Source: a virus. Taken from it: 31,637 bases of DNA. The stretch covers positions 1-31,637 of the IMG/VR virus record IMGVR_UViG_3300042879_000865. One strand, written 5' to 3'. Both the position numbers and the translations under genes were made by a program. Every line of letters starts with the position of its first letter. The first letter of the stretch is position 1. A model generated the notes under the pieces. The model made no database searches, was not told the origin of the DNA, and saw nothing but the letters and a program-made list of their open reading frames with translations. Shown piece after piece: positions 1,458-14,359 of this stretch.

Positions 1458-2138
1458 ATGGCCGAACAGAGCGTTACACGCAGCGGTAAGAGCAGCAGCC
1501 AACGCAAGAGCGAGGCGCAGTCCGTCAGCCGTGCTGGCAAGGGCGACCTTCAGACCGGTGTTTATGGTAAGACGACCATGGCCAACCCGATTGGCCGTCG
1601 TTATGCCTCGCCAATCGGCCCATCCAATCGCGGCTTTATACCCGGCGGCGACGGAATTATGGCACTAAACAACATTCGGATGACGCCTACAAGCAAAGCT
1701 CCTAAAGCGACGCCAAACGTCATTCCCGCCGCGCAGGTCATCAGCAACGTGACCCGCGAGCGCACGTCACCCGCGCCGTCCCGCCCCGCAGCGCCCGCCC
1801 GCATGGGCGTCACGCCAGCAACCGGCAAGACGACGGGCTTCACGTCTGGCACCAAGACCGGCACGACCATGACCAAGGCCGGTAAGGCCTTCAAGACGGC
1901 CGAGAGCGCCTATCAGCGTCAGCAGCGCATGGCGTTGGAAAAGATGGGTGTTGCAGGCCCTCGCGGTGGCACTAGCAAGACCAGCAGCAGCGCTGGCGGT
2001 ATGCGCAGCACGGGCGGCGGTTCGCGTAGCTCTGGCGGCGGCGCCGTTGGCAGCACCTCAGGAACGCGCGGCTACGGATCCGGCGGCAACGTGGGCCGTG
2101 GAGACGTCGGTGCAGGACGCAGGGGCGGCGGACGGTAA
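1458..2138 (+). CDS. Gly/Ser/Thr-rich basic protein with RGG-like C-terminus
   Basis: 226 residues, dominated by Ser, Gly, Thr, Ala, Lys and Arg, with almost no hydrophobic core. The last 60 residues are a run of SSGGG, TRGYGSGG and RGDVGAGRRGGGR segments resembling RGG-box tails. I do not recognise a domain. An AAGGGG-type ribosome site at the end of the previous gene precedes ATG 1458, and the stop codon abuts the portal ATG. The gene is probably real: it fills the operon exactly, and the Gly-rich coding is in frame throughout. Disordered basic proteins in this place may coat DNA or attach to the portal, but that is a guess. Confidence 0.7.
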   Translation: MAEQSVTRSGKSSSQRKSEAQSVSRAGKGDLQTGVYGKTTMANPIGRRYASPIGPSNRGFIPGGDGIMALNNIRMTPTSKAPKATPNVIPAAQVISNVTRERTSPAPSRPAAPARMGVTPATGKTTGFTSGTKTGTTMTKAGKAFKTAESAYQRQQRMALEKMGVAGPRGGTSKTSSSAGGMRSTGGGSRSSGGGAVGSTSGTRGYGSGGNVGRGDVGAGRRGGGR

Positions 2139-4298
2139 ATGGCTGACAACAGCGGCATCAAGGGCGCGGAGATCGTCGCAGACGGCGGGACGGACAAGGC
2201 TGACCTGCTCGCCACCATGCGCTCGCGCTTTACCATGGCCATCTCGGCATATGGTGAGAGCCGTGAAGACGAGTTGGACGACCTGCGTTTCATGGCAGGC
2301 TCGCCCGACAACCAGTGGCAGTGGCCAGCCGACGTGCTGGCCACCCGTGGTTCCGTGCAGGGCCAGACCATCAACGCGCGTCCGTGCCTGACCATCAACA
2401 AGCTGCCGCAGCACGTCCGGCAGGTTACCAACCAGCAGCGGCAGAACCGCCCGTCTGGCAAGGTGATCCCGGCCGACGACAACGCCGACGTAGCCGTGGC
2501 CGAGGTGTTCGATGGCATCATCCGGCACATCGAGTACATGTCCGACGCCGACGTGGCTTACGACACCGCCTGCGACAACCAGGTGACCTACGGCGAGGGC
2601 TACATCCGCATCCTGACCGAGTACGCCCGCGAGGACAGCTTCGATCAGGACCTGCGCATCGGGCGCATTCGCAACGCTTTCAGCGTCTACATGGACCCGA
2701 CGATCCAGGACCCGTGCGGTTCTGACGCCCAGTGGTGCTTCATCACCGAGGACATCGTCAAGGCCGACTACGAGCGCATGTTCCCGGACGCAGCACCCAT
2801 CTCGTCCATCCTGACCCGTGGCATTGGCGACCAGTCGCTCTCCATGTGGCTGTCGGAGAACACCATCCGCATCGCGGAGTATTTCTACATCGACCACAAG
2901 AAGGCGACGCTGCACCTCTATCCGGGCAACGTCACGGCCTTCAAGGGGACGCCGCAGGACCAGAACCTTGCGGCCATGTTCGGCAAGCCGCTGCGCACCC
3001 GCGTCGTGGACCGCCGCCGTGTCATGTGGCTCAAGACCAACGGCTACGAGGTGCTTGAGGAGCGTGAGTGGGCGGGCAAGTACATCCCCGTCGTCCGCGT
3101 CGTCGGCAACGAGTTTGAGGTCGATGGCCGCCTCTACGTCTCCGGCCTTGTGCGCAACGCCAAGGACGCGCAACGCATGTACAACTACTGGGTCAGTCAG
3201 GAAGCAGAAATGCTGGCTCTGGCCCCCAAGGCACCCTTCATTGGCTATGGCGGCCAGTTTGAAGGCTATGAGATGCAGTGGAAGACGGCCAACACCAACA
3301 ACTGGCCGTACCTCGAAGTGAACCCGGATGTGACAGACGGCGCGGGCAATGTCCTGCCTCTCCCGCAGCGTGCGCAGCCGCCGCTGGCACAGACGGGCCT
3401 TATTCAGGCCAAGATGGGCGCTGCCGAGGACATCAAGGCCACCACGGGCCAGTACAACGCCTCGCTGGGCCAGCAAGGCAATGAGCGCTCCGGCCGGGCT
3501 ATCCTTGCCCGCGTGCAGGAGGGCGACACCGGCACCTACCACTTCGTGGACAACCTCGGCCGCGCCATCCGCCACGTCACGCGCCAGCTTGTGGACCTGA
3601 TCCCGAAAATTTACGACACCGAGCGCATCGCCCGCATCATTGGCGTGGACGGTGAGGTCGGCATGGCCAAGATCAACCCGATGCAGCCCGAGCCGGTCAA
3701 GAAGATTTACGACCAGATGGGCAACGTGATTGAGAAGATTTACAACCCGTCTGTCGGTCAGTACGACGTCGTCATCACGACCGGTCCGAGCTACCTGACG
3801 AAGCGCCAGGAGGCCGTCGAGGCCATGGCCAACATCCTCCAGACTAGCCCGCAGCTTTGGCAGGTGGCAGGCGACCTGTTCATCAAGAACATGGACTGGC
3901 CGGGCGCGCAGGAGATGGCGGCCCGCTTCAAGAAGATCATCGACCCGAAGGTGCTGGCGGAAGACGACAAGTCGCCGGAACTTCAGTCTGCTGAACAGAT
4001 GGTCGAGGCGCTCACGCAGCAGTTGAATGAAACCATGGGTATGGTCGAGAACATCCAGAACTCGATGGAGGCCCAAGAGCTTCAGATCAAGGCATACGAT
4101 GCCGAGACGAAGCGGATCAGCGCCATGCAGCAGGCCATGACGCCTGAGCAAATCCAAGACATCGTCATGGGAACCATCGCGGCTGCGGTGGAGACGGGCG
4201 ACATCTCGTCTGGCAAGCCCATGATGCCCCAGCCAACCGAAGCACCCCGCGAGATGCCGCTGGGGCCTGAGATGCTTCCTGAAGGAGCGCCCGTATGA
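2139..4298 (+). CDS. Portal protein, P22 type
   Basis: 719 residues, the usual size for P22-type portals (about 720). The N-terminal part carries the typical early signature: RSRFTMAISAYGESREDELDD, then FMAGSPDNQWQWP, then RPCLTINKLPQHVRQVTNQQR. A middle region has VTYGEGYIRI and IQDPCGSDAQWCF. The C-terminal 100 residues are helical and Gln/Met/Glu-rich, compatible with the long barrel of P22-like portals. The portal forms the dodecameric ring at the unique capsid vertex, docks the terminase and passes DNA. Its last bases overlap the next start by 4 (ATGA). The antisense strand is also long and open, but that follows from GC-rich third positions. Confidence 0.93.
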   Translation: MADNSGIKGAEIVADGGTDKADLLATMRSRFTMAISAYGESREDELDDLRFMAGSPDNQWQWPADVLATRGSVQGQTINARPCLTINKLPQHVRQVTNQQRQNRPSGKVIPADDNADVAVAEVFDGIIRHIEYMSDADVAYDTACDNQVTYGEGYIRILTEYAREDSFDQDLRIGRIRNAFSVYMDPTIQDPCGSDAQWCFITEDIVKADYERMFPDAAPISSILTRGIGDQSLSMWLSENTIRIAEYFYIDHKKATLHLYPGNVTAFKGTPQDQNLAAMFGKPLRTRVVDRRRVMWLKTNGYEVLEEREWAGKYIPVVRVVGNEFEVDGRLYVSGLVRNAKDAQRMYNYWVSQEAEMLALAPKAPFIGYGGQFEGYEMQWKTANTNNWPYLEVNPDVTDGAGNVLPLPQRAQPPLAQTGLIQAKMGAAEDIKATTGQYNASLGQQGNERSGRAILARVQEGDTGTYHFVDNLGRAIRHVTRQLVDLIPKIYDTERIARIIGVDGEVGMAKINPMQPEPVKKIYDQMGNVIEKIYNPSVGQYDVVITTGPSYLTKRQEAVEAMANILQTSPQLWQVAGDLFIKNMDWPGAQEMAARFKKIIDPKVLAEDDKSPELQSAEQMVEALTQQLNETMGMVENIQNSMEAQELQIKAYDAETKRISAMQQAMTPEQIQDIVMGTIAAAVETGDISSGKPMMPQPTEAPREMPLGPEMLPEGAPV

Positions 4299-5334: not shown

Positions 5335-7284
5335 ATGAGTGTAGCTCTTTCGCCCGTCGCTGGCGCCGCTGCGCAGTTTTTTGACAGCAATGGCGATCCG
5401 CTTAGTGGCGGAAAGATTTACACATATGACGCAGGATCTACCACACCGCGCGCGTCGTATACTAGCTATACGGGTGGCACCCCACACACAAACCCAATCG
5501 TTTTAGACGCCGCAGGTCGTGTACCTGGCGGCGAGGTTTGGGTTACCAACGGTGTTCAGTATAAGTTTGTCGTACGCACTTCTGACGACGTTTTGATCGG
5601 TACGTACGATAATCTTGTTTCTATAGTGACAATAGATAACAAGGCGCCTTTTGTTTCCGTAGCGGACTATGGTCCCATCAATACTGCGTCGCTTCTGGCG
5701 GCTATCTCCGCCAGCGACTACGTCTTTGTCAATAGCGGTACATACAACGGGCCTATTGACATTGCGCAGTCTAACAAGACCCTGATGATGGGCGACGATG
5801 TCGTTTTCTTCTTGCCGAACGGCACTGTAACGTCGTCCCTTGCTACCGGCCCAGCAGTCCTTCAAATCAGCGGAAATAACGTAACTATTCAGGGTGATTT
5901 TACCGTCAACGGTAATAAAGCGAACAATGATAGTTCGTCGTTCTCTTCATCCGTTCTTATCGGCAGTCTCAACATTTTAGGTGATAACTGCCAAATATAT
6001 GGCACGGCTACGGTTCTCGACGCATACTACCGCGGCGTTACGGTTGGCGGCAGCCTGGTGTCTGGCGGAGAAGTGCAGGGTTTTTACGCCAACAAAATCT
6101 ACGTTGCAAACGCAAACTTCTACTCAGTCATGCTGTGGTCTGTTGTCGATTGGCGTATTGAAGAAGTCCGCGCTACCACTAACGCACCGGGTACAACGCG
6201 CGATCAGCGCATTCGCACTGGGACACAGTCTTCTGCTACATCAATCTGCGGGCGCGGGTATATCGGCCTTGCGTACACCGATATAAATTGCGGATTTGTT
6301 GGAGAAGCAAAGACGATTGATGTCAGCATTGACACTGTGATGACTGGCGATGGCGGTAAACTGGAAGACTGCACTAACGTCCGCATCGGGCATTGGAACG
6401 CATATGATTGTTCTCGCGCGGCAGCACGTACTGCGTTCTTTTTAAACAACTGCGATAACTGTCATGTCGATAGCGTTATCGTAAATAGTTTTAACGATGA
6501 CGGTTCAAACACTCCCGCCATTTCTTTTAATGGGACTACTTCCTGTAGTGTCGGCTCAATCGTATCTGTCGGCAATCAGACAAACACTCCTAACTCAGAA
6601 CTTCGTATCCGCCAAGCTGATGGTCTTTATCTTGGTACTGTTGTCCTGCGCGATCCGGTTGGAACCTGCGAAGGGTTTTATTACGATCACGGCTATCCGA
6701 CGCAGCAAGACATTATTGTTGACGATCTTATCTCGCGTGGTCATACCACTTGGGATATTGTGGTCGAGAACAGAACCCCGATTACCATTCGCAGCTTTAA
6801 TTCAGATGCGCTAGTCCAATATCCGACGAACACGTACTACCCCAACATCACCGACAAAGACTTCCAAGAAATTGCCGCTTGGTCTCCAACGTATACAACG
6901 TCTGGAACTAATTTTACGTCCGTTACATACGACGGGATTACGGGCGCTAGGTACGTTAAACTTGGGAAGTTGGTGCATATATCTGGCATTCTGCGCACTG
7001 ACGCTATTACGGTCGGTGGGGCTAGCGGAACGGTGTGCATCGGTAATCTACCTTTTCCGGTAAAAAATGATGGCGATGCGTATGCGGCTATTCCCTTGTC
7101 CTCGGCGAACAGTTTTGCTGGCGATGTTCCGCTGAATGGCCGCGCAGTTCCTAATACCTCTCGTATAGAACTATACTACCGCACTAGCGTTAATGGCGAT
7201 GATACAGGCCTGGCCGTTTCCGACCTGAATACAGGGGCTAACTCAAACACTCTTGTTTTTGGCGGCGCTTATGAGACGGATTAA
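5335..7284 (+). CDS. Tail spike / receptor-binding protein with beta-helix body
   Basis: 649 residues. Residues 1-100 are a virion-attachment head: FFDSNGDPLSGGKIYTYDAG, then NPIVLDAAGRV, then YKFVVRTSDDVLIGTYDNL, a pattern seen at the start of many podovirus spikes and fibres. The middle (about 110-480) has short strands with regular Asn, Gly and Val spacing (NNVTIQGDFTVNGNKAN and similar), as expected of a right-handed parallel beta-helix. The C-terminal 150 residues look like a separate beta domain, perhaps for trimerisation or receptor binding. No catalytic residues can be assigned, so depolymerase activity is possible but not shown. Its base composition is much more AT-rich than its neighbours (22/60 GC at 5941-6000), which points to acquisition by transfer. 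Confidence 0.85.
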   Translation: MSVALSPVAGAAAQFFDSNGDPLSGGKIYTYDAGSTTPRASYTSYTGGTPHTNPIVLDAAGRVPGGEVWVTNGVQYKFVVRTSDDVLIGTYDNLVSIVTIDNKAPFVSVADYGPINTASLLAAISASDYVFVNSGTYNGPIDIAQSNKTLMMGDDVVFFLPNGTVTSSLATGPAVLQISGNNVTIQGDFTVNGNKANNDSSSFSSSVLIGSLNILGDNCQIYGTATVLDAYYRGVTVGGSLVSGGEVQGFYANKIYVANANFYSVMLWSVVDWRIEEVRATTNAPGTTRDQRIRTGTQSSATSICGRGYIGLAYTDINCGFVGEAKTIDVSIDTVMTGDGGKLEDCTNVRIGHWNAYDCSRAAARTAFFLNNCDNCHVDSVIVNSFNDDGSNTPAISFNGTTSCSVGSIVSVGNQTNTPNSELRIRQADGLYLGTVVLRDPVGTCEGFYYDHGYPTQQDIIVDDLISRGHTTWDIVVENRTPITIRSFNSDALVQYPTNTYYPNITDKDFQEIAAWSPTYTTSGTNFTSVTYDGITGARYVKLGKLVHISGILRTDAITVGGASGTVCIGNLPFPVKNDGDAYAAIPLSSANSFAGDVPLNGRAVPNTSRIELYYRTSVNGDDTGLAVSDLNTGANSNTLVFGGAYETD

Positions 7285-7290
7285 AACAGT

Positions 7291-8484
7291 ATGATTACTC
7301 CATCTTACGCAATAACCGCTACAGAACGAGTTCTACCTCGTCTCGCGCTCAACTTTACAACTGGCGTGCTTGATCCGCGCGTGACTGTTACTCGCGCTTT
7401 GAACACCGCCACTCGCGTCAACAGCAGTGGTCTTATTGAAACAGTCAACGCTGATCTACCGCGCTTTGACTATGATCGTACAACACTAGCCCCTAAAGGT
7501 CTGCTAATTGAAGAAGCACGTACAAACTTGCTTTTGCAATCTTCAGATGCTTCTCAGTCGCCTTGGACGCCAGCGTCAGGCGGCGCGGGCGCTTTAGCGG
7601 TTGTAACTGCTGCTGCTGGGATTGCGCCTGACGGTACAAACACTGCCGTTAGAGTTCAGTTCAATTGCACAGATGCGTCTTCGTCAAGTAATCGGTCGCG
7701 TATTCAACAGTCCGTAACTGTCGTTAACGGAACTACATACGCCAAGGCGGTGTGGATAAAAGCGTATGACGAAAATAACGTAGGAAAAACCGTTCGTTTT
7801 TCTGTTGAAGGCATCGCAAATAACGTTACCCATACACTTACTAATCAGTGGGTCCGCGTTTCCGCGCCAGCCGGCGCCGCCAACACAACCGCAGCCGTTT
7901 TTATAGTTGAAACGCGCGGTACCCTTACGACCCAAACTGCTGACGTTCTTATGTGGAATGGCACGGTTGAGGCCGGGGCTTTCCTGACTAGCGACATTAT
8001 TACTGGGGCAACGACAGCAACAAGAAATGCTGATGTTGCCACCATGACAGGTACTAACTTCAGCGATTGGTGGCAGGCGACGACAGGCGCCGCGGCGGCC
8101 CGTGCGCTGCCATCTACCGTATCTGGCACCCGTCCAGTTATTCAGTTTGACGATAATACCGCCGACAACTTCATTACGCTGCGCGGAAACACAACCAACC
8201 CGGAACTTTATATCAAGGCCGCCACTGACCAAGCGCAAATTGACGCCGGCACAATTTCGGCAAACACCGCATATACGCTTGCCGGAAGCTGGAACACAGA
8301 CAGTTGCGCCGCCGCGCTTAACGGCGCCGTCGCAATTACGGATGCCAGCGCAACTATCCCAACGGTCACTCAAGCCCGATTGGGATCGGACGGAACAAAC
8401 TATTTGAACGGCCATCTTCAGACCGTTCGATACTGGCCTCAACGCTTAATTAACGCAGAAGTACAAGCATTTAGTAAACTTTGA
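7291..8484 (+). CDS. Second spike/fibre protein with lectin-like fold
   Basis: 397 residues. The N-terminal third contains RFDYDRTTLAPKGLLIEEAR followed by TNLLLQSSD, a block I know from many phage virion proteins. The middle (about 85-230) reads as a carbohydrate-binding beta-sandwich. The section TTATRNADVATMTGTNFSDW and the end NGHLQTVRYWPQRLINAEVQ resemble concanavalin/LamG-like fibre domains. It starts six bases after the spike gene's stop and shares its elevated AT content at the 5' end, so the two look like one host-recognition cassette. Likely role is receptor or polysaccharide binding; the exact place in the virion is unknown. Confidence 0.8.
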   Translation: MITPSYAITATERVLPRLALNFTTGVLDPRVTVTRALNTATRVNSSGLIETVNADLPRFDYDRTTLAPKGLLIEEARTNLLLQSSDASQSPWTPASGGAGALAVVTAAAGIAPDGTNTAVRVQFNCTDASSSSNRSRIQQSVTVVNGTTYAKAVWIKAYDENNVGKTVRFSVEGIANNVTHTLTNQWVRVSAPAGAANTTAAVFIVETRGTLTTQTADVLMWNGTVEAGAFLTSDIITGATTATRNADVATMTGTNFSDWWQATTGAAAARALPSTVSGTRPVIQFDDNTADNFITLRGNTTNPELYIKAATDQAQIDAGTISANTAYTLAGSWNTDSCAAALNGAVAITDASATIPTVTQARLGSDGTNYLNGHLQTVRYWPQRLINAEVQAFSKL

Positions 8485-12336: not shown

Positions 12337-13047
12337 ATGGCATCGGCTGGCGACATTATCAATGGCTCCCTGCGACTGATTGGTGTGCTGGCCGAAGGCG
12401 AAACGCCGTCTTCCGAGACGGCGCAGGACGCCCTGAACGCGCTAAACCAGATGATCGAGTCGTGGAATACGGAGCGCCTCGCCGTCTTCGCAACGCAGGA
12501 TCAGGTTGTTAGCTGGCCGCCTGGCGCCCGTTTCCAGACGTTTGGGCCGACCGGCAACATCGTCGGCAACCGCCCGGTTTTGATCGACGACGCGACCTAC
12601 TTCCGTGATCCGGCCAGCGGCATCTCCTACGGCCTGAAGCTGATCAACCAGCAGCAGTACAACGGCATCGCGGTCAAGACCGTCACGTCCACCTACCCGC
12701 AGGTGTTGTGGGTCAACATGACCTACCCGGACATCGAGATGTACGTCTATCCGGTGCCGACCAAGGTGCTGGAGTTCCATATCGTGTCGGTGCAGGAACT
12801 GAACCAGCCTGCCAATTTGGCGACCAATCTGGCCTTCCCGCCAGGCTATCTGCGCTGCTTCCGCTACAATCTGGCCTGCGAACTGGCCCCTGAGTTCGGC
12901 GTCGAGCCGTCGCGGCAGGTGTCCCGCATCGCCATGACGTCCAAGCGCAACCTGAAGCGCATCAACAACCCTGACGACATCATGGCGCTGCCCTACAGCA
13001 TCGTCGGAACGCGGCAGCGCTACTCAATATTTGCCGGGAATTTCTGA
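12337..13047 (+). CDS. Tail accessory factor, P22 gp4-like
   Basis: 236 residues; P22 gp4 is 166 and relatives run longer. The N-terminus ASAGDIINGSLRLIGVLAEG followed by SETAQDALNALNQMIESWNT is the typical helix pair of gp4-type head-to-tail adaptors, which dock beneath the portal to close it after packaging. The middle is beta-rich (YGLKLINQQQYNGIAVKTVT; YPDIEMYVYPVP). Residues 165-200 give FPPGYLRCFRYNLACELAPE. It ends RYSIFAGNF. The final 28 bases overlap the stop end of an antisense HNH gene. Position after the coat and before the gp10-like gene agrees with the role. Confidence 0.87.
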   Translation: MASAGDIINGSLRLIGVLAEGETPSSETAQDALNALNQMIESWNTERLAVFATQDQVVSWPPGARFQTFGPTGNIVGNRPVLIDDATYFRDPASGISYGLKLINQQQYNGIAVKTVTSTYPQVLWVNMTYPDIEMYVYPVPTKVLEFHIVSVQELNQPANLATNLAFPPGYLRCFRYNLACELAPEFGVEPSRQVSRIAMTSKRNLKRINNPDDIMALPYSIVGTRQRYSIFAGNF

Positions 13048-13511
13048 TGAAGTTTGCGTTTGGCATCAATATAGGCTGCGTGCGCCGCTTCGGGGGTTTC
13101 AAACAGCCCAATCCGGATCGGTTTGTAGTTGACTTTGATCTCGGCCAGCCACTTATTGTTTTCCTTTCGGACACCCGAAAATCCGCTTTTATTTTTTCGC
13201 GGTTTTTGGTTTTGCGCGTTTTCGGCGTTTGTGACTTCGCGGAGATTGCGCAGCGTATTATTCGCGCGGTTTCGGTCAATGTGGTCCAATTGTTCAACAG
13301 GCCAGCGCCCGTGCACATGAAGCCATGCGAGTCTGTGGGCCAAATACAGTCGGTCATCAACACGAATGACAACGTAACCGTTCCGCATGACGCACCCAGC
13401 GACGCTGCCTTTTCTACATCTACGGCGGCTAATTGCCCATGTAAAAATTCCCGTGCGTGGGTTATAGTCAAGCAATTCACGAACACGTTCCGCCGTCAAA
13501 CTATGTTCCAT
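13020..13511 (-). CDS. HNH endonuclease with AP2 DNA-binding domain
   Basis: 163 residues. The ATG at 13511 is preceded by GGAGGA at a good distance. An N-terminal helical segment (EHSLTAERVRELLDYNPRTG) is followed by the HNH_3-type nuclease (LAHRLAWLHVHGRWPVEQLD, then HIDRNRANNTLRNL) and an AP2-type beta-sheet DNA-binding domain (SGFSGVRKENNKWLAEIKV, then IRIGLFETPEAAHAAY). This is a free-standing phage homing endonuclease type. Its last eight codons lie inside the 3' end of the tail accessory gene. Composition is AT-richer than its surroundings (27/60 GC at 13141-13200), which fits a mobile gene. It has its own apparent promoter inside a palindrome. Confidence 0.92.
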   Translation of the reverse strand: MEHSLTAERVRELLDYNPRTGIFTWAISRRRCRKGSVAGCVMRNGYVVIRVDDRLYLAHRLAWLHVHGRWPVEQLDHIDRNRANNTLRNLREVTNAENAQNQKPRKNKSGFSGVRKENNKWLAEIKVNYKPIRIGLFETPEAAHAAYIDAKRKLHQKFPANIE

Positions 13512-13527
13512 ATCTGTCCTCCAACCA

Positions 13528-13549
13528 ACACAGTTAATATTAACTGTGT
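13528..13549. repeat. 22-bp perfect palindrome over the HNH -10 element
   Basis: ACACAGTTAAT is followed immediately by its exact reverse complement, giving 22 bases of perfect dyad symmetry without a spacer. It lies between the divergent HNH and tail-fibre genes in AT-rich DNA, and contains the likely -10 of the HNH promoter. It could be an operator for a dimeric repressor or a hairpin-forming element at the 5' end of the HNH mRNA. Confidence 0.75.
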
Positions 13550-13565
13550 CGTATTAAAAGGTCAA
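13537..13565 (-). promoter_or_regulatory. sigma70-like promoter for the antisense HNH gene
   Basis: On the minus strand TTGACC (13565-13560) and TAATAT (13542-13537) are separated by exactly 17 bases. Transcription would begin near 13530, about 20 bases before the start codon at 13511 and just upstream of the GGAGGA ribosome site. The -10 lies inside the 22-bp palindrome, so a protein bound there would block it. Confidence 0.55.
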
Positions 13566-13570
13566 GCCTA

Positions 13571-14359
13571 ATGTCCACTGTTGCCATCTCACAACTTCCC
13601 GCTGCACTCACTGCTGATCCGGCAGATGAAATTCCTATTGTCCAGAGCGGCATCACGAAGAAAATCACCAACGCGCTGTTGTTCAGCACCACGTCACTGG
13701 CCAGCGCAACTGGGCTTCCGATTGTCGCCGGTACAACCGGAACGCTGAGCGTCGCGCGGGGGGGTACTGGGGTTACCACCTCTACAGGTACTGGAAGCAC
13801 GGTTCTGTCCAACGCACCGACGCTGGTTACGCCGACGCTTGGAGTTGCGACCGCCACCTCCATCAACAAGGTGGCCATCACCGCTCCTGCAACCAGCGCC
13901 ACGCTGACGATTGCAAATGGCAAGACGCTGACGGCTAATCACTCGCTGACGCTGGCAGGCGCCGACAGCACAACAATGACGTTCCCGTCCACCAGCGCGA
14001 CCATCGCGCGGACGGACGCGGCGCAGACGTTTGCGGGCAACCAGACCTTTAGTGGAGCGTTCATTCAGGGCGCACAGGCGCTGTCTGGCGCTGGCGCAGT
14101 CAACATCACGCAGCCAGTCACCAAGTTCACGTCTACGGCTACAGGCAACGCGCTGACGCTGGCCGACGGCGTTGAGGGCCAACTCAAGACCATCGTTTAT
14201 GTGGCAGAAGCCGCTGGTGGCGACACCGGCATTCTTACGCCGACCAATCTCGGCGCCGGAACGACCATTACGTTCAACGCGGTGGGAGATGCTTGCGTGC
14301 TCCAATTCCTTGGCTCGGATTGGTGGGCTATCTCGCTCCGTGGCGCAGTGCTGGCTTAA
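13571..14359 (+). CDS. Tail fibre protein
   Basis: 262 residues. The N-terminus (TVAISQLPAALTADPADEIP, then VQSGITKKITNALL) is an attachment segment seen in several phages. The motif LSVARGGTGVTTSTGTGSTV and following VLSNAPTLVTPTLGVATATS is the widespread fibre repeat that forms trimeric beta shafts. Ala/Thr-rich strands follow, and the C-terminal tip ends VLQFLGSDWWAISLRGAVLA. It starts with AAAAGG ten bases upstream. Its leader is shared with the divergent HNH promoter, so HNH transcription and fibre expression may interfere. Confidence 0.85.
   Translation: MSTVAISQLPAALTADPADEIPIVQSGITKKITNALLFSTTSLASATGLPIVAGTTGTLSVARGGTGVTTSTGTGSTVLSNAPTLVTPTLGVATATSINKVAITAPATSATLTIANGKTLTANHSLTLAGADSTTMTFPSTSATIARTDAAQTFAGNQTFSGAFIQGAQALSGAGAVNITQPVTKFTSTATGNALTLADGVEGQLKTIVYVAEAAGGDTGILTPTNLGAGTTITFNAVGDACVLQFLGSDWWAISLRGAVLA

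Follow-up and report, generated by a model that had tools for sequence, protein, structure and literature searches.

The antisense HNH gene described here is probably part of a homing-type cassette, set backwards in a P22-like late operon and supplied with its own promoter and with an open plus-strand "bridge" frame that would relay ribosomes across it. The window (the whole stretch analyzed) is 31,637 nucleotides of IMG/VR virus record IMGVR_UViG_3300042879_000865. It is also likely, in our judgment, that where mobile endonuclease genes lie antisense in phage operons, selection maintains a stop-free, translationally coupled relay cistron on their complement, whose amino acid sequence is irrelevant, with the operon shaping the orientation, codons, and promoter of these genes. 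In the open-license papers searched, we found no account of antisense endonuclease genes with such a relay on the complementary strand. If correct, an essential late operon can accommodate a reversed selfish gene cheaply, because the codons of that gene let the other strand be read through; translation-transcription coupling in phage operons becomes testable by silent mutations; and annotators are warned that relays may account for many antisense "hypothetical proteins."

The window derives from a podovirus of high GC content (60%) and is a fragment of its genome, encoding a P22-like portal, coat, and stabilization protein and its own DNA polymerase. An earlier note, made from the letters of the window, described late genes running on one strand save for the HNH gene; all likely genes of the window indeed lie on the plus strand, with that sole exception. 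Features of the junction between adaptor and fiber genes are listed in Table 1. Elsewhere, two large genes between portal and scaffold (5335 to 7284 and 7291 to 8484) have no Pfam match and a GC3 (0.50 and 0.46, respectively) far below that of most others; they were possibly acquired recently. A 699-amino-acid minus-strand frame (2058 to 4157) faces the portal gene; its openness was put down to codon bias (GC3, 0.85), and it was not accepted as a gene.

Table 1. Features of the occupied adaptor/fiber junction, in window coordinates
Feature	Position	Strand	Remark
Upstream late gene (tail adaptor/gp4-like, 236 aa)	12337..13047	+	
Whole insert relative to empty relatives	13020..13570		
HNH_3 + AP2-like free-standing endonuclease gene, 163 aa	13020..13511	-	Antisense to late operon
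Bridge frame, 174 codons	13047..13571	+	Codon-aligned antisense of HNH gene
HNH gene Shine-Dalgarno GGAGG	13518-13522	-	
22-bp perfect palindrome ACACAGTTAATATTAACTGTGT over HNH promoter -10	13528..13549		Fully self-complementary
Palindrome 12-bp core GTTAATATTAAC	13533-13544		
HNH promoter -10 TAATAT	13537..13542	-	17 bp from -35
Fiber gene Shine-Dalgarno AAAAGG	13556-13561	+	Brought by insert
HNH promoter -35 TTGACC	13560..13565	-	
Downstream late gene (fiber-like, 262 aa)	13571..14359	+	
Empty junction order			Adaptor end - TAAGGATACATC - fiber start

The minus-strand gene product has an HNH_3 domain (E value, 4e-15), an AP2-like domain (E value, 5e-6; below the Pfam cutoff), and, in profile comparison, a weak resemblance to 1u3e, the structure of an HNH homing endonuclease, and its catalytic Asp-His and Asn residues are invariant across 16 relatives. 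Judged at the sequence level, the unit is a putative free-standing HNH homing endonuclease, for which cutting and spread are predicted. In empty relatives such as L019, L020, and L101, with adaptor genes 96 to 99% identical to that of the window, 12 nt separate the adaptor stop from the fiber ATG. At this site, genes of a P22-like late operon are tightly coupled: across 87 distinct empty junctions, the distance between adaptor stop and next start is mostly -1 to +9 nt. The insert takes the place of the adaptor gene's final 25 nt and of the 12-nt spacer, and its left border falls at the HNH stop codon. Compared with L101 and L020, the adaptor gene is near-identical until 25 nt before its stop, after which 9/25 positions differ; the insert's version of the last eight codons keeps the protein end (SIFAGNF versus NIFAGNY). 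The insert brings the promoter, the palindrome, and a new Shine-Dalgarno for the fiber gene. The earlier note had asked whether the palindrome drifts freely in relatives lacking the HNH gene; searched as an exact match, its core GTTAATATTAAC occurs in 0/87 empty junctions. As read from these alleles, the HNH gene, its promoter, and the palindrome form a single insert.

Occupied and empty alleles both exist at this one site, which is a hot spot, since at least five HNH families (clusters at 50% identity) occupy the same junction: the window's own AP2-like family, further ones at 44 to 48% identity (one including annotated phage ctNMl277), and NUMOD4-HNH genes. The HNH and adaptor trees are broadly concordant and do not show frequent cassette transfer between distant backbones. 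Scars are found at the junction in L125, L045, and L076. That of L125 (55 nt) has no HNH gene, keeps the -35, and retains an open 16-codon bridge ending in TGATG, which suggests that the HNH gene was lost and the relay retained. Short scars following the adaptor stop, in L125 and also in L045, L076, and L089, start with ATGTTTA as NUMOD4-HNH inserts do.

The cassette resembles T-even mob genes and Xanthomonas phage HNH-AP2 genes (PMC2988022, PMC2248197) in joining HNH to a C-terminal DNA-binding module, in its intergenic insertion, in its occupied and empty sites with coexisting scars and relatives, and in overlaps with neighbors that suggest translational coupling. The homing endonuclease genes of T4 are all sense oriented except segD, and several rely on promoters of their neighbors; segD, the only antisense one, was described without its own promoter (PMC2988022). 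Unlike in T4, the HNH gene here is antisense, has its own promoter, and has a bridge frame kept on the other strand.

Both the 22-bp perfect palindrome and TTGACC-17-TAATAT reading into the antisense HNH gene, as given in the earlier note, were confirmed. The promoter match by itself is ordinary (2 overlapping matches versus 1.3 expected in 3 kb), and the promoter is credible because relatives conserve it. Within the HNH family of the window, the -35/17/-10 geometry is kept at 60 to 75% protein identity, with fourfold sites near random (17 to 38% identity) and near saturation, and the element is gone where the HNH gene is gone, which supports the earlier proposal of an independent HNH promoter. 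TTGACC-17-TAATAT itself is kept in L011, L030, L176, and L187, and L193 and L194 have the full consensus TTGACA-17-TATAAT. HNH genes with a leader and Shine-Dalgarno are those of the window, L011, L030, L176, L187, and L199; the remaining majority have the start codon exactly 7 nt past the -10 and 36 nt past the start of the -35, a spacing from which leaderless mRNAs are probably made. An intrinsic terminator was looked for, and none was found. The complement of the -35, GGTCAA, abuts or overlaps the Shine-Dalgarno region of the fiber gene and encodes Gly-Gln in the bridge frame, so the HNH and fiber genes share that stretch, which bears on the earlier suggestion that binding there could affect the fiber gene too. 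Compact, divergent, mostly leaderless, and accompanied by a dyad in some lineages, this promoter is a model for the timing of homing endonuclease expression.

The palindrome is the longest perfect one in the window (next longest, 16 bp). Palindromes of at least 22 bp are expected 0.01 times per 31.6 kb in first-order Markov simulations, and one of such length arose in 0/4000 local 250-bp simulations. Exact 22-mer copies in viral contigs are confined to the same phage species; the first matches (L002 to L005, 98.6 to 99.9% identical) were accordingly discarded as conservation evidence. Searching viral contigs with the 18-mer core added one diverged relative, L176. The same core, searched exactly in 84,980 species genomes, gave 6 scattered matches, about the chance level, which speaks against a host operator or regulon for the exact 18-mer core and leaves the host regulator that the earlier note offered as a possible binder unsupported.

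We consider the dyad over the -10 most likely, at a little under even odds, to be a candidate protein-binding site that tunes the promoter in some lineages. In its specific form, the palindrome would be an operator used by the HNH protein, or by some other phage repressor, to shut the endonuclease's own promoter, as in I-TevI, a reading to which we give not quite an even chance. Besides the overlap with the -10, it draws on L176, which keeps 21/22 palindrome bases despite a fourfold identity of just 17% between the two HNH genes, and on the 12-bp core, present in 9/11 class-I promoters, although the -10 part of that core is under constraint in any case. The arms flanking TAATATTA in the other promoter class vary in concert (GACTT/AAGTC, GGCTT/AAGCC, GCCTT/AAGGC, and GTCTT/AAGAC), with a covariation score of 0.128 versus 0.067 shuffled (13/500), clear against slid controls but modest against shuffles; the genes in this test, as in the codon tests below, are phylogenetically non-independent. 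Against an operator, arm covariation in the window's own promoter class was not above shuffles, L011 keeps the left half only, its right arm having drifted, and the dyad arms are lost in L010 and L184, whose HNH proteins are sisters of that of the window. AP2 residues are also similar between genes with different arms. AP2 residues tracking the arms were considered and rejected as inconsistent: in L198, L264, and L206, whose dyad arm differs, Cys or Asn replaces the Arg that follows "GV," a hint not borne out consistently.

The likeness to I-TevI autorepression (reviewed in PMC2988022) is that a candidate operator overlaps the endonuclease's own promoter. The I-TevI operator resembles its homing site, and its binding was demonstrated (PMC2988022), whereas the candidate dyad here is absent from the empty site (exact match to the core) and so does not resemble an obvious homing site. 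A repressor site is plausible but not obligatory from the sequence comparisons. The repressible control put forward in the earlier note fares likewise: retention of the dyad in L176 and L030 speaks for it, and loss in L010 and L184, together with arm covariation no better than shuffles in the window's own class, speaks against it.

A contender that we rate as quite possible, though short of even, is that the promoter alone matters and the palindrome is an incidental, drifting extension of an AT-rich -10. Most members keep TAATATTA alone, full arms are limited to a few, and outer arms are absent in L010, L184, L188, L192, and L280. This reading has to accommodate the rarity of palindromes of this length, the near-identity of L176 and the 9/11 pairs kept by L030 at saturated divergence, and the compensatory arm changes of the other promoter class. 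Other dyads lie close to the promoters or leaders of unrelated HNH genes found at this junction: TTAGGTATAGCATACCTAA at the NUMOD4-HNH promoter of L039, that of L035/L036 (GGTGTTTTC...GAAAACACC in L035), and GGTAAAC...GTTTACC in L092.

It is unlikely that the dyad acts at the RNA level, by forming a hairpin ahead of the fiber Shine-Dalgarno on the late plus-strand mRNA. The plus-strand 22-mer does fold at -9.5 kcal/mol and leaves the Shine-Dalgarno free, but the other promoter class would give a 5- to 6-bp stem with a 12-nt loop, G-U is not consistently preferred over A-C mismatches, and ribosomes on the bridge frame would melt the structure.

That plus-strand frame, which runs through the same DNA, had been overlooked in the earlier note. 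In the window, its start (TGATG) overlaps the adaptor stop, and its stop (TAATG) overlaps the fiber start. It is open across the insert in 31/31 junction loci analyzed (28 clusters at 90% identity and 5 HNH families at 50%; mostly one HNH family and not fully independent, with fourfold sites near saturation). At 30 of these junctions it overlaps the next gene by ATGA/GTGA or TRATG; in L341 its stop falls about 12 nt short of the next start. The frame begins at or near the adaptor stop, with an ATG overlapping that stop in about half, and an ATG lying away from it is often preceded by a Shine-Dalgarno (L188, L190, L277, and L278). The antisense position of the HNH gene would account for the need for a bridge: lacking one, the late mRNA would contain some 520 nt that no ribosome translates, set between two coupled genes.

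A stop on the complementary strand requires TTA, CTA, or TCA in the HNH gene. Junction HNH genes have CTA at 2/272, TTA at 1/159, and TCA at 0/54 (together, 3/485), so that 3 antisense stops were seen versus about 41 predicted by the rates in adaptor genes of the same phages. Antisense-stop codons are absent from 30/33 junction HNH genes; each of the remaining three carries a single one among its last six codons, which lies upstream of where the bridge starts and outside the frame. HNH relatives elsewhere have 4.5 on average at equal mean GC3, and only 3/54 GC3-matched ones are without any. In other contexts, as delimited with a simple gene caller, HNH genes antisense in operons are open in 4/9 cases versus 2/41 in sense. 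For the window gene alone the lack is not significant (14 Leu/Ser codons), and the case rests on the family. The codon statistics show selection for bridge openness, and loss of TTA, CTA, and TCA is a codon signature with which relay frames can be found.

Two other accounts of the open frame are very improbable. A functional plus-strand protein would fit a full-length frame with start signals, but the frame has no protein-family match, its amino acid identity (39%) barely exceeds the 35% expected from HNH constraint alone, which indicates that openness and position are kept rather than protein sequence, and fourfold HNH sites, which are the first positions of plus-strand codons, are near random. 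That codon bias in GC-rich phages merely leaves such a frame open gains some color from long codon-aligned antisense frames opposite some window genes, such as that at the portal, and is equally remote: it was rejected on adaptor, downstream-gene, and HNH-elsewhere controls, since adaptor genes of the same phages are open in 1/31 cases despite a higher GC3 (0.73), GC3-equal HNH relatives elsewhere are not open, junction HNH genes use other A-ending codons freely (16 to 26% in six other fourfold boxes), and start and stop overlaps are left unexplained.

Under the relay model, a sigma-70-type promoter belonging to the HNH gene, recognized in the manner of host promoters, would drive its minus-strand transcription, probably early, and late plus-strand transcription would then oppose it. 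The HNH protein would promote copying of the insert into empty phages. Late ribosomes may finish the adaptor, continue through the bridge, and begin again at the next gene by termination-reinitiation, and this translation would shield the late mRNA from Rho termination.

Overlaps of -1 and -4 nt (ATGA/TGATG) are given as the standard signature of termination-reinitiation (PMC6728339, PMC10666635), and the same overlaps stand at the bridge ends. Where such coupling is known, it joins two functional genes, whereas the present bridge would be a filler that passes ribosomes from one to the other. The bridge has its closest precedent in ShiLan, where an insert in a phage methylase (PMC11855218) likewise hides an HNH gene, is stop free in the host reading frame, and has suggested leaderless initiation. 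ShiLan lies inside a gene, with the HNH read out of frame and the host protein carrying the insert (PMC11855218); by contrast, the insert here is intergenic, its HNH gene runs antisense, and the frame in the host direction forms a bridge cistron of its own.

In L207, L201, L250, and L013, HNH relatives lie antisense in other phage operons, with the complementary frame nearly or fully open, including some cases of low GC3, which hints at relays as a general feature beyond this junction.
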